A stretch of DNA of 64,000 nt from Isoetes taiwanensis (Eukaryota; Streptophyta; Lycopodiopsida; Isoetales; Isoetaceae), in contig JAJEKV010000033.1 in NCBI GenBank assembly GCA_021234155.1, positions 4,443,454 through 4,507,453 on the forward strand, read 5' to 3'. This document shows, piece by piece, positions 4,286 through 50,300 of the stretch. Made by a program: the position numbers and the translations under genes. Within the stretch, counting starts at the first letter, position 1, and every line of letters begins with the position of its first letter. The notes under the pieces were generated by a model that worked only from the letters and a program-made list of their open reading frames with translations, was not told the DNA's origin and did not search any database.

Positions 4286-5885
4286 TTATAGACCTAGAAT
4301 ATATGGTACGTTTGTTGAAGGCAACCATTCGTTACCTCCAATAAATGAACCAACAGTGAAATGTAATGCCTCCGTCGTGTTAAGTGCTCTAGTCCAATTC
4401 ACTCGACTTGACATGGTTGCTCCTGCACCAGTGTTTTTGTATTCGCCATAATATACGGTTTGGGATCTATTAGCAGGGGCACCATCCCATGCAAGCCAAC
4501 CTGCTGGGTTAATTGCACTGCTAAGTTGACTTTTCATGAACACAGTCCTAGAATAAGTTTTCCATGGACGGCCCAAATAGGTTTGACTAATGGCCCCATC
4601 AACCTGGCACTGATGAACTGATATCCCTGTATTCTGATTTATATCATCACGCCCTTGAGCAGTAATGGTGTTCTTTTGGAAACTGAGAGGTGTCCTAGCA
4701 TATAATGAGCACTTTTGAAAAACTACAGCCGAATTGCCAAATATAAAGTCTACAGTTCCTATCACTTGACATTCTCTATAAAATTGGCGATTAGCATATG
4801 TGTAGAGAGTATCTTGATAAGCAACTATGGAACACTTATAAAAGGCAACTTTGTCGGAAGTCACTAGCAGAGCAACTGCTTGGTTATTTTGAGGGCCCGC
4901 GTTATTCTGAATGGTAAGGAACTTACCAATGAATCCATTGCCTTTGACACCTGCAAATTATGGTATATAATTAGGAAGATGAAAGCCATTCATTTCCTAG
5001 ATAGGAAGGGAGAAACGTCTTACCAAAAGTGGCAGTTCTAAAAGTGGTCCCAGCTTGAGCATAATAATTGCTAGCAGTGATTATAGTCTTATTGATGCCA
5101 TCACCAAAAATAGTAAGATTTGTTAAGGAGCTTGGGACTTCAACCGTTTCATTGTATATACCCTTCTTAACATAAATAACGTAGCCAGGAAAAGAGGAGT
5201 TGATAGCAGCTTGTACAGAAGTGAAATTGCCACTGCCATCTTTGGCCACCACCAAATTAGCAGTCACATTTTGGAGGAGAAAACGACGACGATCGGGGGA
5301 CATCCAGATAGGAAGGCCCTTGATAAGCTTATAAGGAAAAGATAGCTCTTTTTCGACCAAATTTCTGCCATAGCTGCCATATGTATTAGTCTGATTACTA
5401 AGAGCCTGCTTTCTCAGATTCATAAATAAGGCCAATGAATTGCTAAGATCCTTTTGTAGCCCTTTTGCATTGCTCAACACTCCTTGCAGCGCTGATACTC
5501 CTAGAGCCTCAAGCTCATCTGCACATGTTGATCGCCCTGTTAGCGCCGTGCTCGTCCACGTCCATATATCATCACTAGTCCCATCCTCAATTGACCTTTG
5601 CGAAAAATATTGCACCTTTGCTGCTGCATCATTGAGATACCCCATTGCCCCCTTTAGGAACTCCATGCAATCTTCTAACACTACCCTCACTCTAGCCTCA
5701 CTTTGCGAATATGAAAGCGCATTTTGCACTATGTTAATTACATTTTGAAGTTTTGGTGCTGACGATCTCATTCCATCCCTGCAAGCTTGTGATGCATTCT
5801 GTATTGCAGTAAGTGGGAATCCATAGCCACTCGATATGCATAAAATCAATAACAAACCAACCACATGGACTTGGTGCTTTGGCAT
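4286..5885 (-). CDS. Pectin methylesterase with N-terminal PMEI domain
   Basis: Two exons, 5885-5024 and 4950-4286, are joined by a 73-nt intron (donor GGTAAGA, acceptor TTTGCAG), giving about 508 residues. A signal peptide covers residues 1-22. A PMEI-type inhibitor domain with conserved Cys follows (about 30-180). The processing site RRRFLL is near residue 200, and the catalytic pectinesterase domain fills the rest. Catalytic motifs are present: QAVALLV, QDTLY, GTVDFIFG (the two Asp and the stabilising Gln) and LGRPWKTYSR. The enzyme removes methyl esters from cell-wall homogalacturonan in the apoplast, and the pro-domain is normally cut off before export. Length and exon structure are normal for the family, and I see no disruption. 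The start is the first Met before the signal peptide. A weak AT-rich TATA-like tract lies near 5970-5980. Confidence 0.93.
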
Positions 5886-6842
5886 GACGTTAGAACAATG
5901 AAGATGGGACGAGATGATGCAGGTTGTAGTGAATTATCAAGTCACCTATGGCATATGGTTCTAGAGGTCATACTTTATTTAGAGCTTTAGGTTGTTGGGC
6001 CCAACGGTTGTTAGAACTCACTTTCCTCCCCTTTATGTCGGGTGGACAAGACAAAATTTTATTTAACATGTATATGACCATGTCTTAGGCTCCATTCTTA
6101 TAAGAAATAATACTAGCCCCCAGTTCTCACCTTTGCCACCAAATATATAGGCCCACATTGTGTTTTGACTCTATTTTAAGAATCAACTATTTGGTTTTGG
6201 TAAGCTGGCAAGAGAAACATTGTCAATGTTTTCCATAAGTGCCTACTTCTAAATCATAAATTATATTTTATTGGATATACAACACTATAAACATCGGCAA
6301 GATCGAGGGTAGGCACATTTCAAAAGTCAATGGCATAAACGGCAACATTGATTGAACGCGTTTGTCTTCCAAAGTTTGAGCTGTATTTTGGAAGAAAAAG
6401 AATGAAGAATAAAATGGAAGAAGGAAAAATGAGGAAGAGGAATTTTAAAGACCGTGTCCTACTACCCTTAGTGTTTATTCGCATCTATGGTTAAGTTTAG
6501 TTAAGGTAACTTTTACCGTTAAGTTAAATTAACAGTAACTGGGTGATTTTCTTCATACTAAAGCTAGTTAAGAAATTTAGCTAGGCCAACTTAATGGAAA
6601 ACTTTTTCGCACTCGTTTAGTTAAAAATGTTGGTTAAAAAAATCTTAACTAGCTAATTAAATTCTTTCGAACATGTCTAGTTAAGTTAGCCAAAGGTATA
6701 AAAAATTTTAAGCACATTTAACTAAATTTAGCTTTTAGTGCTAATTTCTAATTTAGTTAATTTTTAGTTAATTTTGTTGACTTAATTGAACAAGGGGTGA
6801 AGACAAGTTTAGTTAGTGTTTTTGGTTAAAAAAGTTGCCCAT
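5886..6842. other. Pectinesterase upstream region and TTAACT-rich DNA
   Basis: The first few hundred bases should include the promoter of the minus-strand pectinesterase. From about 6470 the DNA is dense in TTAACT/AGTTAA words, partly as inverted pairs, which looks like old MITE or simple-repeat material. No ORF is convincing. Confidence 0.35.
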
Positions 6843-20402: not shown

Positions 20403-21767
20403 ACCGGGGTGAGTGTGATATATATCATTGGACCAGATTAAATAGTTAGAAAACAACAATTGATCGAGCATATGAAGAAATATACAGACAATTCCAGGTG
20501 AATGTTGAGAAATATACACTTAAATTTGCGGGCATGGCAGAACAGATGAAGTCTTCGACACACACATTGCTGAAAAAACAACTGGCCACAAAAAAGCAAT
20601 GCAGTTTCGACATGGAAACATGTGTGCAACTTGATGATCGCTTTTAATTAACACAATTTGAAAGACAATAGGATAGTCAAATATCGTTGGCCTCCGGGTT
20701 CATTTGGCCATGGTGTCAAACAAAATAAACACCATGTTTCAGAATAAGGAATGTTTTGAGCAGAAGATTAAGCAAAACATATCAAAGCTTCAAATAGAAG
20801 TTGTAGAGATGACCATTAGGATCTAACGAGCTCTTGAAACGATCATCAAAGAAAGTGAGCAACATCAGTAGCATCGTCAGACTCTATAGGACATGATCAC
20901 CATTTTGAAAATGGCAAAATCTATAGAGAACATAGGGTGACCTCTAGACTCCAGAAGTTGGAAGAAAGCTCCTCTAATCAAGACCATAATATGCAAGAGC
21001 TATGCAAGACAATTGCTTTGCAAGATAAAAGGCTTCATGCTGATCCTCATGAGCAGGCAAGAATTGGATACGCGTAGGGTAAACAAGGAAGCTCTTAGCT
21101 CCAGATGTTGAAGGACTGTCCATATCAAGTTGCCTGCAACACATCCAACAAAACAGGAAAATGCTATCAAGCAAAGACAAACTAAAGCAACTACTCAGCC
21201 AGACAATAGATCCCTTCAAGTCAAGCAATGGCAGAACATCAGGGATGCTAGTGACAATTGCTGCTACATATGCCCATTGCACAGAGGGTATTGCAAAGCT
21301 TCTCAAGGGCAACAAGGACAGAGGCACAGGGTTCACAATGTGGTGGTTCGAGGCCTCCTCTAGGAGGTGATATAGTTTAAGATTAACATCTAATAAATGA
21401 GCTCCGCAAAGGGTCCAATATGATTCTGCATTAGGTGGAATCATGTAGAGTTAGTATATATCATGGTTGGGAACAAAAGGCAAAGGTGTGCGAAAGAAGG
21501 CTAAGTCATGGAGACATCTATAAATAGAAGCTAAACTTCAATTGGTGATATCTCACCAGAGATCAGTATTGGATGATTTTTATTTCCTTGGAACAATCTC
21601 AGAGTCTAGTTTCAAATTGGAGAAGCACTTCTTTTGTTCATCCGTATGAGAGAGAAATGGCTGAAAGAGTGACAAGGGGCCAAAGAAGAAGATCGTGCAT
21701 TGCTCATTCTTTATTGAATTTTATTCTAAGAAAGCTATTACTTTTTTCTAGAGCTTCTGCTGATCTT
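20403..21767. other. Decayed coding-like region, unassigned
   Basis: Bases 20500-20640 and 20960-21370 (+) have coding-like, coiled-coil-type composition with several stops. I recognise no protein. This is probably an old pseudogene or element into whose right flank the large TIR element was inserted. Confidence 0.3.
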
Positions 21768-21838
21768 GGGGTGCAAAATCGGTACTGGGTAGCAGAAATC
21801 ACCGTCCGGACGCCGCTTACAAGTGCTTAAAATCGGCG
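21768..21838 (+). repeat. Left terminal inverted repeat
   Basis: An imperfect inverted copy of 30303-30374. The first 17 positions differ at two sites. It contains one TAAGCA word in inverse orientation at 21824-21829. Confidence 0.7.
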
Positions 21839-22092
21839 TGTTTTAAACATGACGTGCGTGATTGATCAATTGACATGTAGGGTGCGCGCCCGTCAAATGA
21901 CAGGCTGAGAGAATCATGAGCTTGTTTGGTGCCGGAAACATGAATGCCTGTAGCCCGCCATATTCGTGGATGGCGGGCTAACCCATCTTGAATTCAAGCA
22001 AAATGGAGGGACTAATTGTTTCCAAGAATTGCCTGAACCGAAATTCAACAATTTGCCCTCACCAATTTTGCAATACACGTAAATCGGGATAG

Positions 22093-25000
22093 ATGAAACC
22101 CAATTCCTCTCCCCGCTCAGTTTCTGAGCCATTGATGCGCAAGGAAGAGAGATCGAGGCGTAGATTGTATGCAAAGAAGGTAGCAATGAAGAAGAATTCC
22201 CCTTCTAAAGATTCGCCTTCAAAGAAGAATAAGAAATTGAGACTGAGTGACCGCAGAATAAGAGAAATTTCAGGAGAAATTTATGAAGTATTCAACCAAA
22301 TTAGTACAAATGTTGATGACAATGACAAAGGCCGTATCCTTGACAGTCTTCTTTGGAGGGCAAGGGATTTACCAATTGCTTCTATAAAGAAATCTAAGCA
22401 GGTTACTATGGCCGAGCAAATGGTGAAGAATTTGAAGGAAACAATGCAAGAACATAAGTATGAGAGGAATCATGACATGCTTCGTGCAAGGAAGTCCACC
22501 CAGCAGTAGGTACAAATGGTGTCAAGTCATTGAATCAAACAGAAGTGGCCAGATTGCTCAGCATCCCCAGAAAAACAATTTCAAATGCTTTTCAAAGAAG
22601 GTGCAAGTTAACAAAGGGGAAGGACCTTGGTCAATGTTCAGGAGGAGGAAGCGGATGGATAGCATGTTAGATTACAATAGAGAAGCTGTTATCAAGTTCT
22701 GGACAGAAAATACAAGAGTTTCTCCATACAAGAAAGACGTGAGGAGGTATGTATCAGAGACAGGAATAAAGATGGAACATCCAATTCACCTTCTTGAAGT
22801 CAGCCAAGTAAGTATTCATCCTATATTGTAGGGTTCATTATATGTAGCATTTATTTAGCATTCACACGATTTTCCTGTAGTTGCAATTCTACCTCAAGTT
22901 TAGAGAGGAGAATCCTCATATCAAAATTGTATTGCAGACTTTTGAGAGGTTGAAACCGAGTTTTGTAAGGAGGATGCGTGAGAGGCATACATGCTGTTGC
23001 ACAGGGTATTTTTTAGTGGCCCCGGCGGGCCAGATGGCCACACATTCACACATTTCATAAAATAGTCGGCCACACCGGAGTAGGATGCATTCTCACTATG
23101 ACCAAAGGATGGTGGCCAGTTCAAAACACCATTTCATTAAATTCACTTCATAAGTGGCCAATTAGATATTTGTCAAATCTTCAAACCCCTAAGGCGTGGC
23201 CATTCTAATATATTATGTGCATTAGCAACTAGTTGTGGTGGCCATTTAAACCATGGAATAATTTTATATTTATATAGTGCTATGGCCATGTTCTATATTG
23301 GCCAAGTGTAGGGACATAATTTTGATACTTATAGGGGGGGCTATGACCTTTTTGAGTTTAGCTCTAAAATTCTAAAGGCATTTTTAATAAGATAGTGTTT
23401 TTTTTCTTCGGTTCAAATTTGTTTCGATTCAATTTGCAATTTGCATCCCAAAATTATTTTTCGTCATCTAGACTGACTATCCTCTTCATCGTCGCAATTC
23501 AAGTCAAGGTTAGATTCCATTTACCAATTACTTGCAATATGGCTGTCAGTGAGATCTATCCTATAAAATCTGATCTTCTACCTACATTCAACATGTTTAA
23601 AACATTCAAATGACCTTATAATAATCTTAGTTAAAAAAGTGTAGCATGTATTTGTTTTTGTTTATAACAACTGCATAGAGCATCATAGAAACTAGATATC
23701 GTTTTATTAACGTGGCTATCATCTTTACATGTTAGATGTATGGATGTGGCCAATTCAAATTTTTGGAAAAAAAAAATAGTTCCATGATTTTGCCATTTAA
23801 GTTACAACCTCTTGGTGTGACGATTCAAAAAAGGGCCAGGCTAAACTACGCTTAGCAAATTATCCAAGGGAAATAGTGGCCAATATTTTACGCCCCGTCA
23901 AATATGTAGGGAGGTTAAAAAATACCCTGCTGTTGCATCTACCACTTGAAATTTGAATACATCATGCAGGGATTGAACAGTCTGAGAAAATCGGGTGGAG
24001 TTCATGACAATTGCAACTGCCACTGTGAGATTTGTGGCCCTGGCCCAGAATGTGCAGCCAAGGAGCATACAATCAAATGCACCAGTGATTTATGGAGACA
24101 AGTGGTCTGCAGCAAAGGTGATGATGAGGAGTGGTTTGATCATAACTGCTTGATGTTGGCGTGTAAAAAATGTGGGTTGGATAGAATTAGAAAATGTCCA
24201 CAGGAAATGGATGGCACGGGTTCAGTACTAGTTACTTGGAAGACATTTGAAAAGCAACACATGGACCGGGACGAGAGAATTGATGATCCAAGAAAGGCTT
24301 TGAGGTACAAACCCTGTCTTGAGATTAGTACGAAAGGAGAGAAGTCCCAAAGAGTTTCAAGAGGATGTGAAGAAGGTAATATCAGATTTTGTTCCACACA
24401 ATTACATAGCACATTGGCGGGCCAATCGGTTTAAAATAAGCAGGTGTGTCATCATTTCGAGAAGATACAATTGTATCTCATTATTGACTTTGCGTAAAAT
24501 TACAACATCAAGATCCGAGAATGAGCCCCGGTCAATGCACCGGCATACGACCAAGTTTCTATACTTGTTCACATAACATATAGACATGACAAAAGTGCCG
24601 ATATTCCTGTTCTGTCTGCGGAGCATGAAAGAAGACCGTCCAAAGAAGAAAAAAAAAAAGAATGTAAGATTGGAGCAGATCGGGGAATAGACTCAACAAT
24701 GGTAGGAAGATCATAAAAGAGACTCACTTTTACATTTCATGATAAAGTGCATGACTCATTATTTGTGGAACACCGCCACAAAAAAGCATGTTGCATGGCT
24801 TAAGGAACGAGGAAATAGAGTATGAGAAGCATTGGGTTTGGAGTGATGGCTGCTCATCACAATTCAAGTCGAGGAAAACCTTTTTTTTTTTTAGGCGTGT
24901 TCTTCACAATGAATGACAAGGAAATAGTGTGGAACTACTTTGCCCTTGCTCATGGTAAAGGTGAACATGATGGTGCGGTCTTTGTTATCAAAAGGTCGCT

Positions 25001-25736
25001 AAGTAAACAAACCCAATGGTGTGCAACCGAGGCATGCTAAAGATATTGTAAAATTTCGTGTACATATTTCAGCCATCTACCAGCTTGATGAAACAGATGA
25101 GATCAAAAGATATTTTTGGGAAATTGAATCTACTGTTGTGGCAAACATGGAAGAATATGAAATTGAAACACTTAAAGGCACAAAGAAGATTCACTGTATC
25201 AAACCTGTCAGCAGGAGTAGACCAAACAGGCTTGCTCATAGATGCCTGTCATGTTTCTGCTTGTTTTGCATGGATCATAATTGGGACTCCTGCATCAATA
25301 CAGGTAGATTTGGAAAGTGGGAGGTAACTGACTTAAAACCAGAAGTTGAGAAGAAAAAGGAGACTCTTGAACAAGCCAATGAATGGATCAGTAATTTGGT
25401 AGAGGTAGGTGACAATTTTGCAGTGAATGCTGAGGTAGACAATTCAGAGGGTGTGGACTTCTACATCCTCAAGTGCACAGAACCCAAATGCACACTTGAA
25501 GATTCATACAAAGATGGATGGGGGCAAAAATTTGGAGTATCTTAAGTGGATTGTATTATCAATTCTTGGGTAGTTTCAAGTACATGTTGTTCACTAAACA
25601 ACCCGAAGCCTCCGTGCACAGCCATGTGGTAAGATATCCTAAAATTGATATGGACAAAATAGAAGGCACAGACATGTACAAAATTTCACAGGAGACCCAT
25701 GAAAAAATTATGGCCAGTCTCCCAATAACATTGTAA
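22093..25736 (+). pseudogene. DDE-like transposase with HTH and Cys-rich regions
   Basis: From Met 22093 a basic N-terminal region leads to a helix-turn-helix-like stretch (SLNQTEVARLLSIPRKTISN, 22530-22592). A donor CAAGTAAGT at about 22808 and an acceptor CCTGTAG near 22878 bound a 70-nt intron. The next exon is cut by a hAT-type element. A Cys-cluster (CNCHCEICG..C) follows at 24020-24060, then CGLDRIRKCP. DDE-like motifs come next: DFA-stop-NY at 24502, WSDGCSSQFKSRK at 24840-24878, and HGKGEHDG at about 24953-24976. The C-terminus has further Cys/His pairs and ends at 25736. At least four frameshifts and two stops inactivate this copy. The motif order resembles uncharacterised transposase-like proteins of animals and early plants. 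That assignment is from memory and is not a search result. Confidence 0.7.
22994..23937. mobile_element. Non-autonomous hAT-type element, 928 bp, with 8-bp TSD
   Basis: Element 23002-23929 begins CAGGGTATTTTTTA and ends in its exact complement TAAAAAATACCCTG. CTGTTGCA flanks it on both sides (22994-23001 and 23930-23937). An 8-bp duplication with CAGGG ends is the hAT signature. Removing the element and one duplication restores the host transposase frame through a Cys-rich CCCIYH segment, which confirms the insertion. The interior repeatedly contains GTGGCC/GGCCA words and has no transposase. Confidence 0.92.
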
Positions 25737-26248
25737 TTCTTTGACACTTAACCAAATTGATGTTATTCTTTTCAAGTGATTTGTTGTTCCAGCACCTAAG
25801 CACGTAAGCACACATTTGTATATATATTAATAATAGTGAGGATGCACAAGGGTGGTGTGCATGGACACGTACTTCGAAATGAAGATTGAATTGTTGTTTA
25901 GGAATGTAGATTTGTGATATTGGAATAAGATTCAATTATTTATTTTGGTACCATCACTATCCCAACATTCTTGGCAAAATTATATTGTCAAGGCATTTCC
26001 TCGATGTGACATGTGTCAATTCGACTGGTCATACGAAATATTTAAGCCTGGTTACGAATTAATTGTTCTGGCGCGTGTGAGGTTTTTCGTACACTGACGC
26101 GCCTAAGCAGAGGATTTAAGCACTAGGCGCCTAAGCGTAAGCTCTTCTCACAAGCTCACACTCCGCCCATTCCCCGCCCAATTCCTCCGCACTCCTTCCC
26201 AATCCGCCGCACTCCTTCCCAATTCCTCCGCACTCCGCCCAATCCGGC
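25737..26248. promoter_or_regulatory. Intergenic region of the TIR element, upstream of acidic ORF
   Basis: It contains TAAGCA at 25798, 25806, 26104 and 26117, and GC-rich GGCGCGTG/GACGCGCC words at 26070-26102. Short CTCCGCACTCC tandem repeats lie at 26180-26240, just before the ATG at 26249. It probably serves as terminator for the transposase and promoter for the acidic ORF. Confidence 0.4.
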
Positions 26249-26709
26249 ATGAAGCGAGCACATAGCGAGGAGCCGGAGGTCACCTCCAAGAGGCGCTTAC
26301 TAAGCGTCGAAGAGGTGTTCCCTCCACTCTTCCCACCTTTGCCTCAAGTACTTGCCTCCTCTGCTGCCTCCTCTCCTGCCCACTCTACTGCCTCTCAATT
26401 TTCTGAACTATCCGATTCCGATTCCGATTCTTCTGATTCCTAAAAGAATCGGAAATGTCTTCGCAGGAATGTCACTGCAGTTCTGCAAGGGTGGATAGGG
26501 GAATCAGAAGAAGAAGACGAGTCTAATGAAGAAGTCGATGAAGAAGAAGAAGAAGAAGAAGAAGCAGAAATTGAAGACGAATCGGCCGACTTTGCAGACT
26601 TCATGGCGCTCATAAATGGTATGCATGTTTCATTTATTTTCTTTAATCAATTTTTCATTTTCATTTGTTTAATCAATTTTTTGTTATTGGTGTTGCAGAT
26701 GGAGAATGA
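26249..26709 (+). CDS. Small acidic serine-rich protein, one in-frame stop
   Basis: An ATG opens a frame with a basic N-terminus (MKRAHSEEPEVTSKRR), a Pro/Ser-rich middle and an SDSDSDSS tract. A TAA at 26441 interrupts it, but the same frame continues through a long Asp/Glu run to a donor at 26619. An 80-nt intron ends TGTTGCAG at 26698, after which the frame closes at TGA 26707. The product would be about 126 residues if the TAA is read as a point mutation. I recognise no family. The acidic runs with a basic head suggest a nuclear or chaperone-like accessory protein, but that is a guess. The intact splice signals and surrounding frame argue for recent loss. Confidence 0.45.
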
Positions 26710-27575
26710 AGGGCCTCCAGCTTGCCTCCGGCATTTTTTTTTTTTTAATTGTTCTTGCCTCCAGCAGACACCCCCTGAAGACACCCCCCTGAAGAAGACA
26801 CCCCCTGAAGACACCCTGAAGAAGACACTGGCCTAAAGGCCAATTTTTTTGTAAAAATTTTTGTTTATATCCTGAAGACACTGGCCTGAGGGCCTTTTTT
26901 TTGTAAAAAATCTTGTTTCTATAAAAAGTTTTTTGTCTCTATCAAAGTTTTTTTTGTCTCTATCAAAGTTTTTTGTTTCTCTATCAAATGTTATTTTTGT
27001 CTATCTATCAAATATATGAAGTTTGAATTCTTGTACAGTCCATTCAGATTCTGCTTGAATGTAACAGTGCTCTAGCTCTTTAATTAGTTTCAAACACTAA
27101 GCATTTTAATTAGTTTCAGCAGTGCTTGTGAGTAAGCACTGGAACACACGAGCACTTATGCAATAAACAGCTAGGTGTGAACAGTTATATAGCTTAACAG
27201 TAAGCACTTCACCTTAACTGCATGACAGTAAGCATTTGATGACCTTAACACTTCTGCTAGCGTTAAGCAACTACATACTTAGTAACTGTCACTGCATGAC
27301 AATAAGCAGTATCTGCCATTAAGACTCGTACCAGACTAGCACTTGCAGGCAATTTTTTTTAAGCACTTAATAAGATTTAAGCATCCCTTGCAGTCAGCAT
27401 TGAAGTAGATATAAACAATATAGCAAAAACTTATAGACAAGTCTGCATTGAACTACATAAACAATATAGCAAAAACATTCTTAAATTAAGATAAAGATGG
27501 TACATGAAAAGTGTAGGATTCCTTGGCCTAAATAAATGACGATCAGGCCAATAATCATAAATGTCTCAGGCTTAA
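26710..27575. promoter_or_regulatory. Convergent 3' region with TAAGCA cluster
   Basis: A short ACACCCCCTGAAG minisatellite lies at 26766-26830, and GGCCTAAAGGCC/GGCCTGAGGGCC hairpins near 26830 and 26890 are followed by T-runs. Eight TAAGCA words then lie within 286 bp (27098, 27133, 27201, 27229, 27264, 27303, 27360, 27378), all in one orientation, against well under one expected by chance. They sit between convergent genes. Confidence 0.6.
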
Positions 27576-28406
27576 TCACAGTACTGGAGAATGACAAAGT
27601 TCATCACCATAAACCTTCTCCAATTCCTCCTTCACAAACCTGCAGAACTGCAATTGTTTTCCAGAAAGTCTTTCCAAGCATAGCTTCATAATCTGTCTAT
27701 CTGTCTTAGGCCAGGGCTTGTATCTGTGTGTGTTCTTCACTAGTAACTTCATTTTTTCCTCAGTCTTGGCCTGCAGTATTTCTTCTATCTTTGAGGTGAG
27801 TACTGTTAGCACTTCATCATAGACATCCATCTTGAATGCAGGTACCCGCAGAAATTTCCAGGGACTGCTAAGGTAAGACTTGTATAATGAATCATCAAGA
27901 AGCAAAGTCTTACCTTTGAATCTTGGGTATGACTCATATATTTTCCCAAGTGGCTTCATCATGACTGGACATTCTGGTTTGTTAGGGTGGTGAAAACTGG
28001 TCTTCACACATTTTTCCTGTCCCCATACAAATTGAAATCTGCCCCTCAAATCTGGACATAGTACTTGCAGCACATCTTCCACATTAGAGAGTTGCATTGA
28101 TGACCATATACCAACACAACACTTCTGTAACAAAGTCTTCAAGAAGAACACTGCTTCTGGTCTGAATATCACTTTCTTTCTGCTAGTGTATGTCATTGTC
28201 AATCCTGCTTCCAAGCGTATGTGTTCATTTGCACCAAATATTTTTACCAACACACCATTTAAATCCAAGACAATGAGTTTATCTTTTGCTGCCAAATCAA
28301 TATTTAGTACGTTGGAACATCCTGAATACCTACACAACAGGAATTTGGGTTGAATGTGGAAACCTTTCTGTATCAACAGCAGGATTCTCTGACCTAACAG
28401 AATCAA
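27576..28406 (-). CDS. FCP1/SCP-like HAD phosphatase domain (variant motif I)
   Basis: A continuous frame of about 270 residues carries the HAD phosphatase signature of FCP1/NIF-type proteins. Motif I is LIVLDLNGVLV, followed by VGIWSS (motif II), MMKPLGK (motif III Lys) and LLLDDS (motif IV). In the classical DxDxT/V motif the second Asp acts as general acid. Here it is Asn, which may lower or change catalysis, although I recall DLNG variants in plant relatives. No ATG opens the frame; the first possible start is TTG. This suggests the domain is a 3' exon of the upstream coiled-coil ORF. An acceptor GTGTAG at 28330 would begin the exon at 28329. The frame is intact, unlike the transposase of the same element. 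Confidence 0.8.
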   Translation of the reverse strand: MILLGQRILLLIQKGFHIQPKFLLCRYSGCSNVLNIDLAAKDKLIVLDLNGVLVKIFGANEHIRLEAGLTMTYTSRKKVIFRPEAVFFLKTLLQKCCVGIWSSMQLSNVEDVLQVLCPDLRGRFQFVWGQEKCVKTSFHHPNKPECPVMMKPLGKIYESYPRFKGKTLLLDDSLYKSYLSSPWKFLRVPAFKMDVYDEVLTVLTSKIEEILQAKTEEKMKLLVKNTHRYKPWPKTDRQIMKLCLERLSGKQLQFCRFVKEELEKVYGDELCHSPVL

Positions 28407-28458
28407 CTGGTAATCCTACAGTAAATGCAACAAAAGAAAATCAATAATATTCAATGTT

Positions 28459-30228
28459 TTAAGCAACACTAGAAGTTGTGGCCTTCTTGGCCAGCAATGC
28501 CCACACCCCCTTTCCAGGGTTATTAAGGGCAGCAATCACTTGTTGAAGATCAGGCTCACCTGAAACTTGCGGGCCTGATTCTACATTTTCTTCAGAACAC
28601 ACTTCGATAGATGTGGTGTCATGATTGAGACTGCTTCCTGCATCTTTAGCATAGCTACTTCTTGTTCTCTTTCTTGTAGCCTGAACAACTTCTTTGATAT
28701 CCTCCAGCTTACCCCTCTTTGTTCTTCTGCCCTTTCCTTTTGGCAAATATTCACCCAAGTTGCCCTCATCTGATGGAATTACTCCCTCAACTTCCTTAGG
28801 TGCTTCAATGTGTACAATCGGGTCTGTTGTTTTTTCCACAACTGGTGCTGTGTTTACAACTGGTGCTGTGTTTACAGCTTCTTCTATAGCTTCTTGGACA
28901 GCTTCTTGGACTGGTGGTGGTGGTTCTGCTGTTGCATTCAAATCAGTCACAATTGACTGTACTCCTATAGGACTTTGCAGGGGTAGTGCATCTTCAAATG
29001 GCACCATTGTCCTTCTTTGAACCCTGAAGGGTGAGACCTCAATTGCAGGACGGATTAACACATCCTTTTTTGGTGTACTATTTGAAGCACCTGCAACATG
29101 GCCAAAACCTAGCTCGTCAAATACACCCTCTAGCACCTTTCCAGGGCAACCATGAATACATTGTCCTCCTCTAAACAATGAACAATAAGCTATATGATAC
29201 TCATGTTGACAATTCAGTGCTAAACTTAACCTGTAAGCTTTAGTGAATTCCAGACCACATGCTGAACATGTATAAAATGGATCTTGCACTAACAACTTAT
29301 CTCGTATAATAGTAGAGATGCTAAATGTTGCAGGAGTATCCATTTTCAGCTTCCACAAATTGTTTATGTAGAAATGCAATTGTCTCTGTTCTTCTTCGAG
29401 AACTTTTAACTCCTCCTCAAGTTTGAGTTTACATTTGACCTGCTCATTAACAGATGTAGGGTTCATTGCTTTTTGTACCTTGTTCCTGTGCCAAGTTTCC
29501 ATCTGGATAGTCTGCTTCAAATCTTTAATTTCTGCCTCCAACTCACAGTTTGGATTAAGCTTGAACTCCTCCTGTTTTGTAGCCAAATCATTTGTGGCAT
29601 GTCTTAAACTGTTCTCAGCCTCTTCCAACATCATTTTCTGTAATTCAGAGGCCTTCTCATTGCCTTTCAGCTCACTTCCTACTGCTTCCAGATTCTTTGT
29701 GATAAGTAAAACTGATTTTCCAATCTCCTGTACTGCATTCTCTAAGGTTTTTATGTTTTCATCACATGCACTGATCTCATTTGATCCAGCTGCCACCTTT
29801 GGCTTTGCCTTCATTTCAGTTTTCCTAACATGTGCTTTAACATCTGCCTCTGTTTTTATTTGTCTATTGTTGTGGTATCTTTGGCATTGCACAGCAAATG
29901 CAGCCCAGTTTACTTTGTGTTCCTCAGGTGCAACTATTGATCTAGTGCAATTTTCAAACGCAAAAGCAAGGGCCAGTTGCTTTCTTACTTCTTTGTTGTG
30001 ACAATTGTTGTAGATTTTTTGACAGAGTGTTTCCAACTTCTCTTGAAGATGCTCCTTTGCACAGTGCCATTTTATCTTTCCCTTGTTCAACTTCTTTGTC
30101 CAAACAGAATCCCAATCTCGATCCGTACCATTATTTTCCAACCAAGTTTCTTCCTCGTGGGGCTTCACCCCCGAATTGCACAGACCTCTGATGCTGTGGA
30201 AATCATCCGCGCTCCATGCCTCCATCAT
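28459..30228 (-). CDS. Coiled-coil protein with Cys/His zinc-finger-like motif
   Basis: An intact frame of 589 residues runs from the first ATG pair (30228/30225). A Trp-rich N-terminal domain leads to a long heptad-type coiled coil (roughly residues 130-310). A CSACGLEF..CQHEYH..C..CIHGCPG cluster (about 330-385) could bind zinc in a RING- or ribbon-like way. The C-terminus is Pro/Val/Glu-rich with a KGKGRRTKRGK basic patch. It begins about 75 bp inside the right TIR. A strong donor CAGGTGAGC at 28559 would splice, via a 22-nt exon (28415-28394), to the HAD exon at 28329 and keep the frame. That gives about 814 residues in all. Unspliced, it stops at 28459. I do not recognise the family. Confidence 0.65.
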   Translation of the reverse strand: MMEAWSADDFHSIRGLCNSGVKPHEEETWLENNGTDRDWDSVWTKKLNKGKIKWHCAKEHLQEKLETLCQKIYNNCHNKEVRKQLALAFAFENCTRSIVAPEEHKVNWAAFAVQCQRYHNNRQIKTEADVKAHVRKTEMKAKPKVAAGSNEISACDENIKTLENAVQEIGKSVLLITKNLEAVGSELKGNEKASELQKMMLEEAENSLRHATNDLATKQEEFKLNPNCELEAEIKDLKQTIQMETWHRNKVQKAMNPTSVNEQVKCKLKLEEELKVLEEEQRQLHFYINNLWKLKMDTPATFSISTIIRDKLLVQDPFYTCSACGLEFTKAYRLSLALNCQHEYHIAYCSLFRGGQCIHGCPGKVLEGVFDELGFGHVAGASNSTPKKDVLIRPAIEVSPFRVQRRTMVPFEDALPLQSPIGVQSIVTDLNATAEPPPPVQEAVQEAIEEAVNTAPVVNTAPVVEKTTDPIVHIEAPKEVEGVIPSDEGNLGEYLPKGKGRRTKRGKLEDIKEVVQATRKRTRSSYAKDAGSSLNHDTTSIEVCSEENVESGPQVSGEPDLQQVIAALNNPGKGVWALLAKKATTSSVA

Positions 30229-30302
30229 CAACAGTGAAACACTGATCTGAGTTTTCGCGCCCAGGGGAAAAGGAGGGAGAAGGGCGTGATGGGCTTCGAC
30301 GT

Positions 30303-30374
30303 CCGCGAGTTTCAGCACTTAAAGTGCTTAAACGCTTCGCCAAAAGTTGTACTCCACTAGCGATTTTACACCCC
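30303..30374 (-). repeat. Right terminal inverted repeat
   Basis: The inverted counterpart of 21768-21838, ending CGATTTTACACCCC on the plus strand. It contains CAGCACTTAAAGTGCTTAAA, itself nearly palindromic and bearing a TAAGCA word on the minus strand. Confidence 0.7.
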
Positions 30375-30768
30375 TTGTTTAGTAACCTATTATTATCCTT
30401 AAGCCCGACCCTTGGTGTCTATATTGAGGACTACTAGCTCGGGGGAAGAGCTACAAGTGGAAGCTGATTGTCAGATATGCCGTATTGTCTTTATGTTCCA
30501 GTTTGATATTGCTAACTGAGTGGTCGGTTTGGATGGAGAGATCCTTTAAATAGGGCCTTGGCTACTAATTTGTGTAGAAGTCTTATATTTATTTATGTAT
30601 GAAAGGAAAATCGTACCATGAGGCAAAAGATGACCTCAACAAGAAGATCCAAAGAATAGTCCTCTCCTGGGACTTCCTGTTCGTATGCACATTATTAATG
30701 CCTCTCATCTTGGTATTCAGCACCACAACCATCCACATATTGTGAAATTTAGAGTGGCACATGTAAGA
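30375..30768. other. Unassigned stretch
   Basis: No recognisable gene or repeat. It lies between the large TIR element and a dispersed repeat fragment. Confidence 0.3.
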
Positions 30769-39131: not shown

Positions 39132-41430
39132 ATGGAGGCATGTTCCAAGGATTTTGTTGTCGAGATTCCAGTTGCTAAGTGTCGCTCAGGGAAGAAGCTA
39201 GCAAAAGATGATTTTTTTAGGAGCTTAGTTTGTCGGCAAATTTTAGTTCCTGCCCTTGAATTCGGAGAAGAGTGGGCTAAGGAAAAATTTGAAAATTTTG
39301 ATGTTGAAGTCTCACTTCCAGGCCAAATTTGTTCATTTGATGGCAAGAAAAGGTTATTTGAGATTTTCTTTGAGTTAGATAATGATTACATAAAGATGAA
39401 TTGAAGACATATTCAAAGGTTTCTTTTTCCAGATGAAAATGTAGCAAATGAAAATACAGAGAAGATGCAAGACGAACATCAAAGGACCCTTCAAAATAAA
39501 AAAAGTTATAGATGACAGAGGCAAAGGAAGGAGAAAGGAGAAAGAGAATGATGATTCAAGTGCAGATTTAGAAGATAAATATACAGATTTAGAGGATGTC
39601 CCACTAGCTTCTCTTTTTTCTGCAAAAGGTAAGACCATACTATGGCCTTCTTTGACTGATTCTTTCACTGAATTTTGAGAATTTGATCCCATGCATGCTT
39701 TTTGTCTTGCTAAAGAATCTGGTTCACCATCAAAAGAGCCCTTTATACCTACTGCTACAAATGAGAAAGAAGCCCTTATAGCTCCTACTCCCATTTTTGT
39801 TCCTCCACTTAAAATTCAGCCTCCTGAACCTGAACCTGATGTGCCTACTTCAGCTTTTCCTATAGCTACAGCAACACCTTTGCCTACTCAAATGGAGGTT
39901 GAAGTAAATATGGAGGTTGAGACTACTGAAATGGAGGTTGAAGTAGCCATTGTAGATGAAGAACTAGTAGATGGAAGAATTTCTAAGAAGCGCGGTAGGC
40001 CTAAGAAGAAAAACTAGAAAATTATAGTGAAGAGAAAGGGCTTAAGAGGACGTGGTCGTCCTCGTAAGAGCTTGTCTGATGATCCTTAACCTGCAAGTAG
40101 ATCTTCTAATGCTGGTATAGTAGATGAGAACGTGGCTTCTACATTAGAAAGTAGAGAGGAATTTAAGGAGGGTGCTTCTATTTCAAGTGACGAGGAGGAA
40201 GATAATCACGAGATGGATGACTTGCAACTTCAAAGAGAAGGTCCTGCATTACGCGATGATATTGATGAGAATGAATTGCCTGGAGATGAGCCTTCTCTTG
40301 CATCATGGACATTTAATAGTGACTCGTTGCCTCCTAATGTACTGCATAAACTTCCATCTTATAACTTTGAACCTTGCCCAGCTTCACGAACCAAGAAGAT
40401 ATCTGCTTTTCATCCTTTTACATGCTTCTTATTCCACACCATGATGTCCTAAATCTGCCACGAAACTAACAGATATGCTGACGAGGTTAGGAAAAAGACA
40501 CAAAGAAAATATGAAAATGTTAGAAAGTGGTCTCCTGTTGATGTCAGCACCCTTTTCAGATTTTTGGGCCTCATAATCGCTATGGCCTTGAACGCATACA
40601 ATAAGCTTACATCGTATTGGAAATCAGGAGAAGTAGGAATAGTAAATTGGCCAAACTTTGGTAGATTTATGAGATTGACGAGAGCACAACAATTTAAGAG
40701 ATTCTTCCGTCTTAGAAATAACCACTTACGTCCTCTCGATAAGACAACAAGGGAATATAAGATTTATCAGGTACAATATGTTGAAAAGGAGTGGAATAAG
40801 AGCTTCATTGATTTGTATACTCCAAGAAAGGAGGTAACAGTTGATGAAAGGATCATTCCTTCAAGGAATGACGTGAACCCATTGCGAATCTACAATCCTA
40901 AGAAGCCACATAAATTTGAAATTCAACTCTGGACCTTATGCGATTCAACGTCGGGCTATTGCTTGCAATTTGAGGTGTATGATAAGTTAAAATAGGAGTC
41001 CGGTGTGGGCTTCCATGTTGTCTCAACCTTAGTGAAAAAACTTCGAGGTACAGGCCATCATGTGTTCTTTGACCGCTACTTCACACGCATAAAGTTACTA
41101 GAATGGTTATCCAAGAAGAGGCAAGGTGGTATGGGAATAATTAATCCCAACAAAACCAAAATGTTCCCTATCAAGATGCACAAATTCGATGGTAAGTCCG
41201 CATAGGACTTGTGTTGTTTCTGCTGCTAATTGAACGATTGAAAAAGCAGCAGGTATTGAACATGAGGCTTGTAGAGCAAAAAGAACTAAATTTTACTGCC
41301 ATGTTTGTGAAGTTCATATTTGTCCTAGTCCATGCGACAATCTGTACCATTCAGACCTATGGGATCCGCTTCGAGAAGAATCAAAGAGGGCTCAGAAAGC
41401 AATGCGACAATGAACTACAAAGGTGAGTAT
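39132..41430 (+). pseudogene. PiggyBac-like transposase, decayed
   Basis: One frame runs from 39448 to 41205, broken by about six stop codons. An acidic region with repeated MEVEVNMEVE-type units is followed by AT-hook motifs (KKRGRPKKKN and GRGRPRK, 39985-40065). The piggyBac DDE domain is at 40455-41205: RFLGLIIAMAL, TVDERIIPSRN with the first catalytic Asp, LWTLCDSTSGY, and FFDRYFT with the second. The third-acidic region is missing. A C-terminal Cys-rich domain (YCHVCEVHICPSPC, 41287-41330) follows in another frame, so an internal deletion of roughly 150-200 residues is likely near 41205-41240. The ORF at 39132-39404 (KRLFEIFFELDND) may be an N-terminal exon. TTAA-flanked ends were not identified. 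Confidence 0.8.
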
Positions 41431-45025: not shown

Positions 45026-45072
45026 GGCAGTGGCGGACCTAAGGCGGCGACTGCAGGCGCTGGTGTGACCGG

Positions 45073-47383
45073 TTGGATCGATTCGAGCTCCGGAGGCATG
45101 GCAGACAACCGGATTCGGAGGAGCGACCCCTGGAGATGCAATCGGCAGCTCATAGAAGGGTTCCGAAGCTGGCGCGGGCGGCCCAGCAGACTCGTCTGGG
45201 TGGGGTTGGATCTTCCACCCAAAAGCCTAATCCGCCTTCAACGGATCTTCTTATGACAGAAAGGCAGGCTGTAGGGATGGATTTGGCAGCACCGAGACTA
45301 CAGAGCCGAACTATGGGGCTGTTGTTATCATCAGATTCTTCTGCAGGTGAGGTGGTTGGCGTGGGGAGGAGCTCGACAGCTTCAGGGCCACAGGGCCGGC
45401 CGGATGGGCTGGGGTTTAGGTTGCCCACAGATCCGATTGCTCGAGTGCCGGATTTGGTTAATTCATCACTTGAGGGAGGTGTGGGTGGTGGTAGCGGGTC
45501 TCTTGAGGCAGGTAGCGGGCCACTTCAATCTGGTGCCCATCGGGCTGAGGTGTCCACGGTTTTGAGGAGGGAAGAGGTAGGGCAGACAGCCTTAAGACCC
45601 CTGGGTTGTGCGCTGCAGCCAGGGGCTGGACAAGGCTCTACGGAGATCGGAGGCAAGGAGGGGGCGGGCTGCCCTCTTTTAGGTTTGGTGCAACAGCCAG
45701 GATCGGGGCAGGGTCCTATGGAGGTCGATGAGAGGGAGGGGGTGACTCATTTCCCCGCAGATCAGGGAGCATCCTCGGCACCCAATCTGCAGGTTGATGT
45801 TCAGGCTGGGAGTCCTTGTGCAGTGGGTGCACAGGCTGTGGGGGAAGCAGAATTTGAGGTCCCGAGCAGCATGCCGCCACTTGAGACAGCAACTCCGCTG
45901 GCCAGTCCAAATTCGCCGGTCTCGACATTGCCGGAGGATCCCTTTGCAGTGGCAGATCCAGTGTGCAGTTTGCCCCAGGGCAATGGGTGTGGTGGTGTGC
46001 CACAGCATCCGCATAAGCCGTCGGGACGGGACAGCCCAAGTCTGGGGAGGCGTGCGGCTGAGGGGCATGGAGTCAGTGCGGCGGGACCTGCATGGCGGAC
46101 GAACGACACGGTGAGTCGGCTTTCACGCCCACGGTTCTCAGAATGGATCCGGCACACCGTGGCGCCGGCCGACACTTATCGGATGGAGGAGGCTTTGGCT
46201 TTCTTGAATCAGCACAACAGGAGGGAGTTGCAGGTGGACCCCATTGGCCCTCCGGCGGCCATAGTCGAGTTAGATCATCAGCAGCATCTCAAGTCTATCT
46301 CTAACCTAGTCTCGTGCGCGGCGTTGGTGTACTGTACTGGGGTGCTGGACACCAGGAGAGTTGGCGGGTGGCTGCAAGCTCACTTCAAGCGGTTGGGGAT
46401 CTCGCCGTTTCAGTCTGTGAAGTTCCTGAGGAACAATTTTTTTCTCATGTTCAATGCGCCCCTGGTAGTGGAGAGGGTAGTGGCGAGAGGGGTTGACCTC
46501 ATGTGGGGGAACTACCTGATTTACCAGCATTACACCCCTGGGGTGAGTGCTCGGTCATTGTCGGCTCTGAAGATCCCGTGTTGGTTTCATGTGATGGATC
46601 TCCCAGCGAATATGTTGTTGCCAGAGTTCATGATTGCGATGGCTAATGGGCTCGACGGCCATATTGCGCACTCCATAGTTCGAGAGCCAAAGATCTGTGT
46701 GGCTTTACCCGCGGATAGTCCACTGCCTCCTTCGGTGACTGTTAGGAGCGGAGACTGGTACTTTCGGTTTCCCCTTAGACTGTTAAATGGGGCAGAGATC
46801 CACATAATGTTTCCCGCTCTCTAGGTCTTTGCAGGCTCGCTTCCAGAGTTCAGGCCTGTGTCAGTATCAGGGGCCTCAAGGGAGGCAAGGAGGGAGGCTC
46901 CGCAGGGTGGGGACCAGGTTCGGTCGCAAACTCAGCTGGTGGAGGAGGCTCTTCCATCCAGGATCCAGCCGATCCCAGCGCCGGATAGGTCACTTCGGTC
47001 TATCTCGGATAATGAGCCGGTGGTCGCCGGTGGGCGTGGATCGGTATCTTCACGCATTTGGTGGCCCGAGTTGCTTCACATCCAAATTCGCCGAACGGGC
47101 AGAGCAGCGGCAACCCCGATAGATGGGCTCGGGATTGGTGGAGGAGCGGTTGGTGCAGCTGTCGGATTCTGATGCTGTATCCACCCAAGCCTCCTCGGAG
47201 GGGATGGAACTGGATAAGGTGGCTCTGCACTCGTGGGGCGATCGAGGTGGATTTGATCTTGAGGTTGCACTCACAGATAACCCGCTCGCCCTTGTTCCAT
47301 ACGACTCAGATCAGGGGCCGGCTTCACCGGCAAGACGAGGGCGGAAGAAGAAGCATCGTAAGAATCCTTCTTCTCAGTCGTAG
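45073..47383 (+). pseudogene. LINE ORF1 (gag-like, DUF4283-type)
   Basis: A Gly/Pro/Ser-rich N-terminus of about 350 residues precedes a folded domain (46200-46820) resembling the DUF4283 RNA-binding fold of plant LINE ORF1. It includes GGWLQAHFKRLGISP, NNFFLMFNAP and IPCWFHVMDLP. A TAG at 46822 interrupts the frame, which then continues to about 47120. After a one-base shift it resumes (SQSD-type acidic and RRGRKKKHRK basic tail) to 47383. I see no zinc knuckle. It would coat the LINE RNA in the ribonucleoprotein. ORF2 starts two bases later. Confidence 0.75.
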
Positions 47384-47385
47384 TT

Positions 47386-50300
47386 ATGGATAAAAAGATC
47401 GTGAACTGGAATGTTCGTGGGGTGCGCTCGTCACCTGCGAAGAGAACGAGAGTGGCGTTGGCTGTTCGGAAGTTGGATCCAGATATTTTGTGTCTTCAGG
47501 AGCATAAGTGTCACAGGGAGACTCTCGGGCACTTTTGGATATGTTTGGGCCGCAATACGCTGCTGCGGTTTCCATCTCTTGGGCCTCTAAGGGTGGGACT
47601 GCCATTGCGTGGAAGATGCATGTGCCGGTGACTTTTACCATGGCTGATCATTGGGGCAGGTGGGTCATCATCAAGTGGCGCGAGGGTCCGCGCGAGTGGG
47701 GTATTGTGAATGTCTATGCCCACAACAGTGCGCGGCAGAGAGGGGCGTTGTGGGCGTCATTAAGACATAAGGTCGCATCTTTGGGGGCGGATGTGGCTTG
47801 GCTGCTGTTGGGCGACTTCAACATGGTCGAGTTCGTTCATGATAGGTGTGGCAGAGGAGCGGAAGTGGTGCAGGGTTTTGAGCGGCTGCAGTGGGTAATG
47901 CTGCGGGACTCCTTGCATCTGGCAGAGGCGGCGGGCGACTCTTCATTTACGTGGTGTAAACAGTGGACGGGGGTCGGTCGGGCATACGCTCGACACGATA
48001 GATGCTATGCTAATACCCTAGCAGCGGACCAGGCGCCTCAGCTTAGGCGGACGAACATTTTGTCTACCGCGGTCTCTGACCATTTTCCTCAGTTAATCTC
48101 CCAGGGAGCGACTGCAGCCAGACCGAGCCGCACTGTGTTCAAGTTAAATACCGCCTACCTGAAGGATGCTGATTTCTCGTGGGGATGCCAACAGATTTGG
48201 TTTCGCACCTTTCGGGATAAGTTCGGGATGGCGGGAATGGTGCAGGCCTTAGCGAGATCAAGGCATTTGCCAAGTCGTGGGGCAGTCGGAGAGCACGGCA
48301 AGAGAGGGAGGTGTTAGAGGCGTTGTATCGCGAATTGGAAGACCTTAGGTCTCGGCCGGCCCGACGGGGTCTTGGGGAGAATGAGATTTTTATACCACAT
48401 TGCGCCAGATGAATCCGGGGGCTGCTCGAGCAAAGGGTGAAAGCGGGGATCACCTGGTTGCGGGAAGGGGACACTAATTCTCGTATGTTCTTCAGGGCTG
48501 CGCGACAGAAGAAGTATGCGGCCTCTATGTCATCGCTGGCATTGGCTGATGGTCGTACCCTGAATTCGCCGGTGGACATCAAGCAGACAACTTTTCAGCA
48601 CTTCTCTCAGTTCTTCCAGGAAAAGAGATATCCCTACACAGACGTGATGGAGGAGATTGTTCTCAGTAAAGTGTCATGCAAGGTGTCAGCAGAGAGGAGG
48701 CAGATGTTGCAGCGCCCACTCACAAAGCAGGAGCTTGAGGAGGCTTGTCGTGCCTTGGTCCCTCACAAGTGCCCTGGTCTGAATGGCATTCCGGTCGAGT
48801 TCTTCCAAGAGTATTGGGATTGGGTAGGGGACTCGGTGCTGCAGACCTATCAAGATCTGCTTCAGGCAGAAGCATTGGACGCTTAACACGGGCTGCATCT
48901 CGTTGATACTAAAGGTGAAGGAGCCCGCTGTCATTTCTGATTGGCACCCCATCACCCTTCTGTCGGCAGTGTACAAAATTATTGCGAAGGCACTTTCGCT
49001 TAGACTGCAAGTTGTCTTGAAAGAGACTATTAGTCCCATGCAGTCAGGCTTCATTCCCGGAAGGCAGATTCTCAGCAATGTGGCAGCGGCATTCGAGGGC
49101 ATTCACTGGGCACGCAGAACAGGTCAGCCGATTGTGTATTTGAAGCTGGATTTCGCAAAGGCCTATGATAGTGTTCGGTGGACGTTCTTGAAAAGGATGA
49201 TGTTAGCCTTTGGGTGTGGGGAGACCTTTACGGCAGTGGCTATGAAGCTCTTAGTGTCTGCCAGAACCACCCTTCTGTGTCATGGCGAGTCATCTCGATA
49301 TTTAGGGTGGGGCGTGGAGTTCGCCAGGGGTGCCCTTTGGCGCCCTTCCTCTTCACCATTGTAGCAGAGGCCCCCTCGCAGTTGTTGACTTCCGCAGTGG
49401 AGGCGGGTGTGGTGGAGGGGCTGAGGATGGCAGACGGATCGCAGCAGATTGGCAGTCAGTACGCTGATGATTCATTCCTCTTCCTGTAGGCTGATGAGGG
49501 GAATCTGTTAAACATGAAGGAGTTGCTGGATACATTTTCCCTTGCTTCTAGCTGCCTCATGAATTGGACGAAGTGCTCGGCATTATGGCCGGCAGCTGAT
49601 CCCATGCCTGTGGTCGTGTCTCAATTCCCATGGCGAACGCAGCCGCAGGGCACGTGCTCTAGGCTTTTGGGTATTCCGTTCGGCATCGACATTTCAGCGT
49701 CAGCGGTGTGGGAGGACATTTTGGTGGGACTGCGGCGGCACCTCAATTGGTGGAAAGGGGGGAAGCTGTCCATGGCTGGCAGGGTCACTGTGGCGAAGTC
49801 CGTCCTATGTTCGAGTCATATTTATATGGCTTCTATCATCCTGGCGCCAGAGAGCAAGGTGCAGGAGATCTCCTCTATGGTTCGTAACTTCGTATGGGGA
49901 GGCAATGAGGAAGGGGCGGTCGTGAAGGTGGCCTGGTGGAAGTGCGTGTGCCCCAAGGCTGCGGGTGGACTCGGCTTCTTCGACCTCTCGCTGCATGGCA
50001 AGGTCCTCTTGTCCAAGTTTGTCTTTGCCATTCTTGAGAATGTGCTCGACTCCCCGGGCATGGTCTTGCTTCACCAGTCGCTGTCCCACTCAATAGTTTT
50101 TCACAAGCCGTCTGTGTCCGCGTGGCTCCCTTGGGCGTTGTTCGTGGATATCAGGTCGTATGCTCATGCCTCTTCGTTTCTGAAGGGGCTCTTGCGAGCC
50201 TGGGAGCAGATCCGTCCGCTGTTTTCAATTGACGCCACCAGGTGCATTCAGTTGGAGGCATTGCCTTGGTGGATCCCGCTTGGACCACGTGCACCTGTGG

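Follow-up and report, generated by a model that had tools for sequence, protein, structure and literature searches.

We analysed 64,000 nucleotides of the lycophyte Isoetes taiwanensis (contig JAJEKV010000033.1, positions 4,443,454 to 4,507,453), hereafter called the window, in which positions 21769-30373 are occupied by a single copy of a terminal inverted repeat (TIR) transposon. The element carries the frames of a putative transposase and, facing them, those of a second protein with a predicted coiled coil, a RING-H2-like cluster and a HAD domain of the FCP1/NIF type. Flank comparison places a CTTG target-site duplication (TSD), to which no strand applies, at 21765..21768 on the left and at 30374..30377 on the right. 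The left TIR (core GGGTGCAAAATCG, 21769..21791, plus strand) was delimited by pairwise alignment and by exact genome-wide copies of a 38-bp end, and the right TIR (core GGGTGTAAAATCG, 30350..30373, minus strand) by pairwise alignment and by a genome-wide 36-bp version that is one base different. The inverted ends GGGGTGYAAAATCG at 21768 (+) and 30374 (-) are the only two zero-mismatch matches within the window; the end sequences as read are GGGGTGCAAAATCG at 21768 and GGGGTGTAAAATCG at 30374 on the minus strand. Because the outer G/C is part of the CTTG duplication, the true element runs from 21769 to 30373. An earlier, sequence-only reading of this stretch had described imperfect inverted repeats of 70 bp. 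Inverted ends are indeed present, but their length was overstated: the two ends of the window copy, aligned alone, agree over ~25 bp, and the outermost base belongs to the duplication. Their pairwise score was equalled by 12 of 971 random pairs of window segments, and by 164 of 971 under a looser scoring scheme, so that this score alone is borderline and not convincing. Since the pairwise end score is weak by itself, the proof of the TIRs lies in the genome-wide copies. In the lineage, element ends read GGGTGYAAA, and the flanks enclose GGGTG...CACCC.

We searched the genome (1,658,258,908 bp in 1110 contigs), from which all genomic slices and loci given L-numbers below were taken. The 38-bp left end starting at 21769 occurs 211 times as an exact match, and a 36-bp right end from other copies, one base off that of the window, 252 times; reversed-pattern controls for both ends gave 0 occurrences. 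Pairing was examined for 79 left ends among 100 listed, with the inverted right end sought within 35 kb. Such a right end was found for 53 of the 79, at 7.3-8.4 kb in 35 of these 53 cases, and the same 79 left ends gave 3 same-strand pairs. Where both flanks were read, an exact 4-bp target duplication surrounds 15 of 17 elements (3/272 in a swapped-pair control), and in the remaining two the duplication agrees at three of four bases. The duplications differ between copies, CTTG, TGGT, AGAG and CACC being among them. Empty sites were found for all three insertions tested, namely those of the window copy, L122 and L124. When the two flanks of the window copy were joined and searched for, 38 of 40 scored places (464 candidates) span the junction at 80-89% identity, the other two being the window's own flanks. 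All 40 scored places for L122 (121 candidates) span the junction at 90-99%, as do 28 of 39 for L124, the best at 96% across all 200 bases; of the remaining L124 matches, nine stop short of the junction and two are the flanks of L124 itself. These empty sites are paralogous copies of repeats into which the elements had inserted. Repeated inverted ends, a fixed-length duplication and empty sites together identify the element as a class II TIR transposon.

The plus strand of the element carries the putative transposase. Its N-terminal exon (22093..22506, +; 138 aa), also found in L047-L050, is BEN-like only under the Pfam cut-off. Further putative exons (...GPWSMFRRRKRMDSML..., then ...LQFYLKFREENP...RERHTCC; 22617..22993, +) were placed by comparison with L030, with the intron assigned by GT-AG reading. 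The core (DFAENY ... DGCSSQFKS in open copies; 23938..24960, +), delimited by open reading frame and copy alignment, is broken in the window, and the C-terminal part (25003..25545, +), with which 150 places were scored of 6022 candidates in a genome search, is open over 180 aa. Inside the transposase lies a nested insertion of 928 bp (23002..23929, no strand; ends CAGGGTATTTTTTA), flanked by the 8-bp duplication CTGTTGCA at 22994-23001 and 23930-23937. This insertion, presumably a non-autonomous hAT-like element, is separate from the TIR element itself and is absent from the four copies L047-L050, where it has no match. Together with frame breaks it interrupts the window transposase. The DDE-like motifs, the broken frame and the orientation towards the accessory gene all agree with what had been noticed at the outset. 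Open transposase frames are found elsewhere, of 627 aa in L018 and 611 aa in L030, and the motifs DFAENY, DGCSxQFKS and GKGEHDG recur among the transposases, with gaps where frames are broken. A PDB sequence search with the transposase returned nothing convincing (best E 0.6; none in a second search), and viral contigs scanned with the transposases of L018 and L124 and with the HAD domain of L122 yielded no relative.

Between the two genes, the stretch at 26.0-27.5 kb varies among copies. Copy comparison revealed a small acidic frame there (MKRAHSEEPEVTSKRRL...; 26249..26620, +), which has one stop in the window and is open in L030 and L047. It is followed by a putative GT-AG intron, assigned by reading, the frame and likely intron together covering 26249-26703. 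In L122 there is no room for this frame, because the two main genes converge with ~210 bp between their open frames.

The second gene is read from the opposite end. A 619-aa open frame spans 28459-30318 (-) and adjoins the HAD frame on the same strand; from the first Met of this frame, the coiled-coil/RING part of the second protein covers 28470..30228 (-). AlphaFold predicts a coiled coil at 29338..29784 (-), with helices at aa 179-327 and a predicted local distance difference test (pLDDT) score near 90 only at aa 231-280. The RING-H2-like Cys/His cluster (29146..29268, -) was recognised from ligand spacing and copy comparison. RING-H2 ligands are arranged as C-x2-C ... C-x-H-x2-H-x2-C ... 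C-x2-C. All eight are present in L121, L122 and L124, and seven of the eight ligand columns are invariant across the four families compared. Profile support for a RING assignment is weak but consistent: the best Pfam RING score, for zf-RING_2 in L121, is 21.6 bits (E 2.6e-4), under the curated cut-off of 27.3, and a PDB search gave RLIM at E 0.005. The HAD exon (27576..28329, -), located by Pfam and alignment, contains motif I as DLNG, motif II as IWSS, a Lys in MKPL and motif IV as LLDDS. For the gene model, four copies were compared around the frame boundary and splice sites were read by eye. A putative 54-nt intron 1 (28416..28469, -; GT-AG, phase 1) would link the coiled-coil/RING and HAD parts, followed by a putative 52-nt linker exon (28364..28415, -) and a putative intron 2 (28330..28363, -), which, judged from its splice sites, falls ~37 nt short of the ~70 nt seen in three other aligned copies. 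The coiled-coil/RING frame would be joined in frame to the HAD exon in this model, as one predicted protein. The coiled coil, Cys/His cluster and FCP1-type HAD domain that the sequence-only reading had assigned to an accessory gene were thus all found, in adjoining frames on the same strand.

The HAD domain of the window matches Pfam NIF (PF03031) with E 1.2e-12 and 48.2 bits against a cut-off of 21.8, and NIF scores range from 48 to 76 bits across the frames scanned. In the PDB, UBLCP1, which we take to be a C-terminal domain (CTD) phosphatase, is the sole match at E 0.01 or better (E 1.5e-4). Motifs II (IWSS/IWTT and variants), III (Lys) and IV (Asp-Asp) are retained. Motif I of FCP1/SCP-type enzymes is DxDx(T/V), the second Asp serving as acid/base in the mechanism. 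All 17 repeat-type domains sampled (the window and 16 slices) have D-x-N-G at this position, and all four comparators (L111, L112, L119 and L120) have D-x-D. Among the 17 DxN domains, those of the window, L103, L105 and L115 lie in such transposons, L107 and L113 are without a visible transposase, and eleven are slices without flanks. Because the acid/base Asp is replaced by Asn, poor turnover is expected, and we read the domain as a likely altered or pseudo-phosphatase; motif I speaks against the normal FCP1/SCP-type phosphatase that had been proposed for it. No DNA-binding domain reached the Pfam cut-off in the frames of the second protein scanned.

The two genes recur together in the genome. 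Among the matches listed, at least 57 of the 150 transposase places have a convergent HAD match within 12 kb (~0.3 pairs are expected by chance), and wrongly oriented pairs number 0; the HAD search itself scored 139 places of 5488 candidates. Seen from the ends, a transposase lies downstream of 16 of 40 left ends and a HAD domain downstream of 14 of 40 among the matches listed, and a right end lies where expected for 13 of 150 transposase and 13 of 143 HAD matches listed. For L047, L049 and L050, the alignment with the window element continues across the HAD gene. The search proposed by the sequence-only reading hence returned many copies in which the gene order is kept, along with 4-bp duplications and empty sites. 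That reading had named two grounds for giving up its interpretation, a phosphatase and transposase that never co-occur between these TIRs and a syntenic host locus, and neither was seen; we rejected a syntenic host gene in view of the thousands of candidate places in the genome.

Diverged relatives came from a search of the genome with the NIF model, which gave 3261 candidates. The top 47 listed score above 93 bits, and we regard most of them as host genes, judging from two slices and from tandem clusters only. Two high-scoring NIF-gene clusters, probably tandem host genes, lie at ~22.9-23.1 and 26.0-26.9 Mb of G000:C1018. Among the matches listed, many further ones at 60-85 bits have open frames and are dispersed through the genome. 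In three of five further HAD loci with flanks (L121, L122 and L124), a RING-HAD gene is convergent with a transposase related to that of the window. L122 is bounded by the TIRs GGGTGTAAATATGGTTCTGC (GGGTGTAAATATGGTTCTGCTACCC) and the TSD TACT, its 25-bp end occurring 25 times in the genome, and L124 by the TIRs GGGTGTAWATTTGATATTGGTACCC and the TSD TATA. Their HAD domains and that of L121 are 31-37% identical to the window copy, and transposase segments longer than 60 residues in the diverged loci show 30-65% identity with the window family. DFAENY is found in L122 and L124, and in L121 frame breaks obscure it; DGCSxQFKS is found in L121 and L124, the L122 frame breaking inside the motif; GKGEHDG is found in all three. 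At the other two loci, L123 (C1027:14496700-14506200, DMNGVLLK) and L125 (C912:3533800-3543200, DLNGVLCR), the HAD domain lies downstream of other frames, and scans of three frames from each yielded no Pfam family over the cut-off. The L123 type of HAD recurs, L107 and L108 being 85% identical.

Between diverged copies, the HAD domain is under purifying selection. The ratio of nonsynonymous to synonymous substitution rates (dN/dS) in diverged open HAD frames is 0.32 for L105/L106, 0.20 for L106/L118, 0.30 for L105/L118 and 0.24 for L101/L103, with synonymous divergence (dS) of 0.7-1.0 in these four pairs. For L105/L115, which represent the loci L122 and L124, both with flanks, dN/dS is 0.19 at a dS of 2.6, near saturation, and for L107/L117, a pair whose membership in this transposon type is not established by locus, it is 0.15. 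Pairs with saturated dS give upper bounds of <=0.74 for the ratio of nonsynonymous to synonymous differences per site (pN/pS), and near-identical pairs give dN/dS of 0.27-0.64, with some intervals reaching 1. Slice L058 compared with 22 window-family sequences yields dN/dS of 0.25-0.61, the upper 95% bound being <1 in 19 of the 22; L069, with too few shared codons, was left out.

The state of the reading frames is a poorer guide to selection. Intact accessory frames beside a broken transposase had at first been taken to suggest later selection or a role in trans. That argument does not hold, as transposases are open in L018 and L030 and accessory frames elsewhere are full of indels. Relative to the coiled-coil frame of the window, nine other places, compared over 1.4-1.9 kb, each show 19-35 indels, most of them 1 nt long, and L018 shows one indel over 796 nt. 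Across L040-L050, many 1-nt indels are seen against 28459-30318 of the window, some at recurrent positions. The assembly was built from Nanopore reads and polished with racon and pilon, as stated in the excerpted text of PMC8566536, and we suspect that part of the frame-breaking indels is assembly error in the repeat. Since the Nanopore assembly confounds frame state, we argue selection from dN/dS of diverged copies instead.

These findings together indicate that the window contains a decayed member of a lineage of cut-and-paste DNA transposons that have two proteins and 4-bp duplications. Copies, gene order, duplications and empty sites all bear out the original interpretation of a large TIR transposon with an FCP1-type HAD accessory gene, and we consider it very probable that the second protein is encoded by the element and maintained by selection.

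Several observations pull the other way. At left ends, one transposase and one HAD neighbour lie in the wrong orientation, and 82 of 143 HAD matches have no transposase match within 15 kb, among those listed. L047 is missing ~1.1 kb of the C-terminal transposase stretch (24467-25548), and the L048 alignment ends at 26134, before the HAD gene. For L121, TIR ends were sought and none established. L123 and L125 combine the same DxN HAD domain with other neighbours and no transposase visible at the locus, so that this domain is not exclusive to the transposon lineage. Pfam scans of frames from the window and from other copies matched no transposase family to the first protein. The AlphaFold models have a mean pLDDT of 32 for the transposase and of 39 for most of the second protein; because they are unusable, the case for a DDE core and for a RING finger depends on motifs. 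The window copy has Tyr in the sixth column of RING ligands, with a Cys one place on and a last spacing of x3; L018 and L045, members of the window family, have Cys in this column. The putative single-protein model depends on splice sites read by eye from DNA. Among the sequences compared for dN/dS, L103, L105 and L115 have flanks, whereas L058, L101, L106 and L118 are slices. For many other HAD pairs computed within the window family, dN/dS is close to 1 or exceeds it, which is what decay of the copies after insertion would produce and shows no sign of selection.

How the second protein serves the element is a matter of more tentative judgement. Protein 1 would be the transposase with DDE-like motifs, and protein 2, read convergently from the opposite end, may act in trans for element propagation. 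Its coiled coil would make it multimeric, its HAD domain, with Asn for the acid/base Asp, may bind a phosphorylated partner or turn it over slowly, and the RING-like finger, going by its motif, could recruit ubiquitin machinery. The transcription or silencing machinery would be the likeliest partner class. Among the roles considered, we lean, with much reserve, towards an expression or anti-silencing factor, which by analogy with VANC/KIU and TET/JBP elements we prefer to a role in the transposition complex. The Pol II (RNA polymerase II) CTD is the usual substrate of FCP1/SCP-type enzymes. More speculatively, a whole lineage of plant DNA transposons may have retained a RING-coiled-coil-pseudophosphatase as an obligatory second protein. 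It would recognise a host factor in its phosphorylated state, perhaps the Pol II CTD, and modify that factor by means of the RING finger; the element would in this way use host phospho-signalling to govern its own transcription or silencing.

Protein 2 could instead be an active CTD-type phosphatase that acts on Pol II or on a host regulator and favours transcription of the element. The NIF scores of 48-76 bits, the retained motifs II, III (Lys) and IV (Asp-Asp) and the PDB match to UBLCP1 would fit such an enzyme; DxN in place of DxD in 17 of 17 domains removes the acid/base Asp, so that turnover should be poor, and we regard this reading as unlikely. We give about the same low weight to a transposition cofactor, engaged in end binding, synapsis or target choice rather than in regulating expression. 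Two-protein transposons are known, for instance Nuwa with its Myb/SANT protein in the portion of PMC12730594 consulted, and the predicted coiled coil suggests multimers, whereas no DNA-binding domain exceeds the Pfam cut-off in the second protein. We think it improbable that the HAD/RING gene arose by transduplication, as a fragment of the host that was captured passively and is carried as idle cargo. Gene capture by plant transposons is documented (excerpts of PMC13317346), the genome contains many other NIF-domain genes, and in the window family many frames are broken and dN/dS is often near 1. On the other side, gene order is the same in families at 31-37% HAD identity, motif I is DxN and not the DxD of the four comparators, and dN/dS of 0.20-0.32 in four diverged pairs argues against idle cargo. 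A composite by nesting, with transposase and HAD gene from two side-by-side elements, might account for the variable 26.0-27.5 kb stretch with its extra small frame and has a precedent in the insertion at 23002-23929, but is very hard to reconcile with the single 4-bp duplication that encloses the entire unit in 15 of 17 copies, with the 7.3-8.4 kb length of 35 of 53 paired copies and with the closely converging genes of L122; two abutting elements were rejected given the single outer TSD. We retain a selected second protein encoded by the transposon itself, with a tentative role in expression or anti-silencing.

Outside the element, the window contains frames at 4286-5933 that we take to be a pectinesterase gene, a frame at 40453-40995 that is presumably a fragment of a piggyBac-type transposase, and frames at 45043-51151 that we assume to belong to a long interspersed nuclear element with endonuclease and reverse transcriptase; these labels were given from recall and no search was made for them. 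The stretch at 45043-51151 has a higher G+C content.

We compared the element with known transposon superfamilies. piggyBac and Kolobok elements have a TTAA target duplication, and both were rejected because the 4-bp duplications seen here are variable and are not TTAA. The TTAA target duplication of piggyBac is also given in PMC5199201. KDZ (Zisupton) elements, with an 8-bp TSD according to excerpts of PMC12730594, were likewise rejected on the 4-bp TSD. Sola2 elements, including those that carry Fanzor1, share 4-bp duplications, short TIRs and an extra gene beside the transposase as described in passages of PMC3627910; their duplications are AT-rich whereas those of the Isoetes element are mixed, and their extra gene is Fanzor1 rather than HAD/RING. 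The 4-bp TSD fits Sola2, but we do not file the element as Sola, the comparison having been one of described features. The transposase itself matches no Pfam transposase model searched.

Within the open-licence literature in PMC, we found no transposon with such a phosphatase-like gene. Enzyme-like helper genes in transposons (VANC/KIU, TET/JBP, Fanzor) are relevant to the evasion of silencing, and an FCP1-type HAD domain without the usual acid/base residue, combined with a RING-like finger, points to transcription or phospho-signalling. With candidate places in the thousands and open HAD frames in several diverged families, activity, partners and effects on silencing are directly testable. 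Annotated genes with an FCP1 domain may, in genomes of this kind, belong to transposons. VANDAL Mutator-like elements (MULEs) with VANC or Kaonashi (KIU) are likewise plant transposons whose additional gene works on related copies, and KIU has an enzyme-like Ulp1 domain; they are, in the text of PMC13317346 available to us, non-TIR MULEs with another accessory domain, whereas the Isoetes element has TIRs, 4-bp TSDs, HAD and RING. In the fungal TET/JBP dioxygenase transposons (KDZ, hAT7, IS3EU, PHISTA, Plavaka and others), an enzyme-like accessory is repeatedly tied to DDE transposases, with a different enzyme and with TSDs of 2, 3, 6, 7 or 8 bp in the sections of PMC12730594 seen. FCP1/SCP/UBLCP1-type HAD phosphatases, finally, belong to the same Pfam NIF family and share motifs II-IV; the Isoetes protein differs from them in its DxN motif I, in the adjoining coiled coil and RING-like finger and in being encoded by a transposon.

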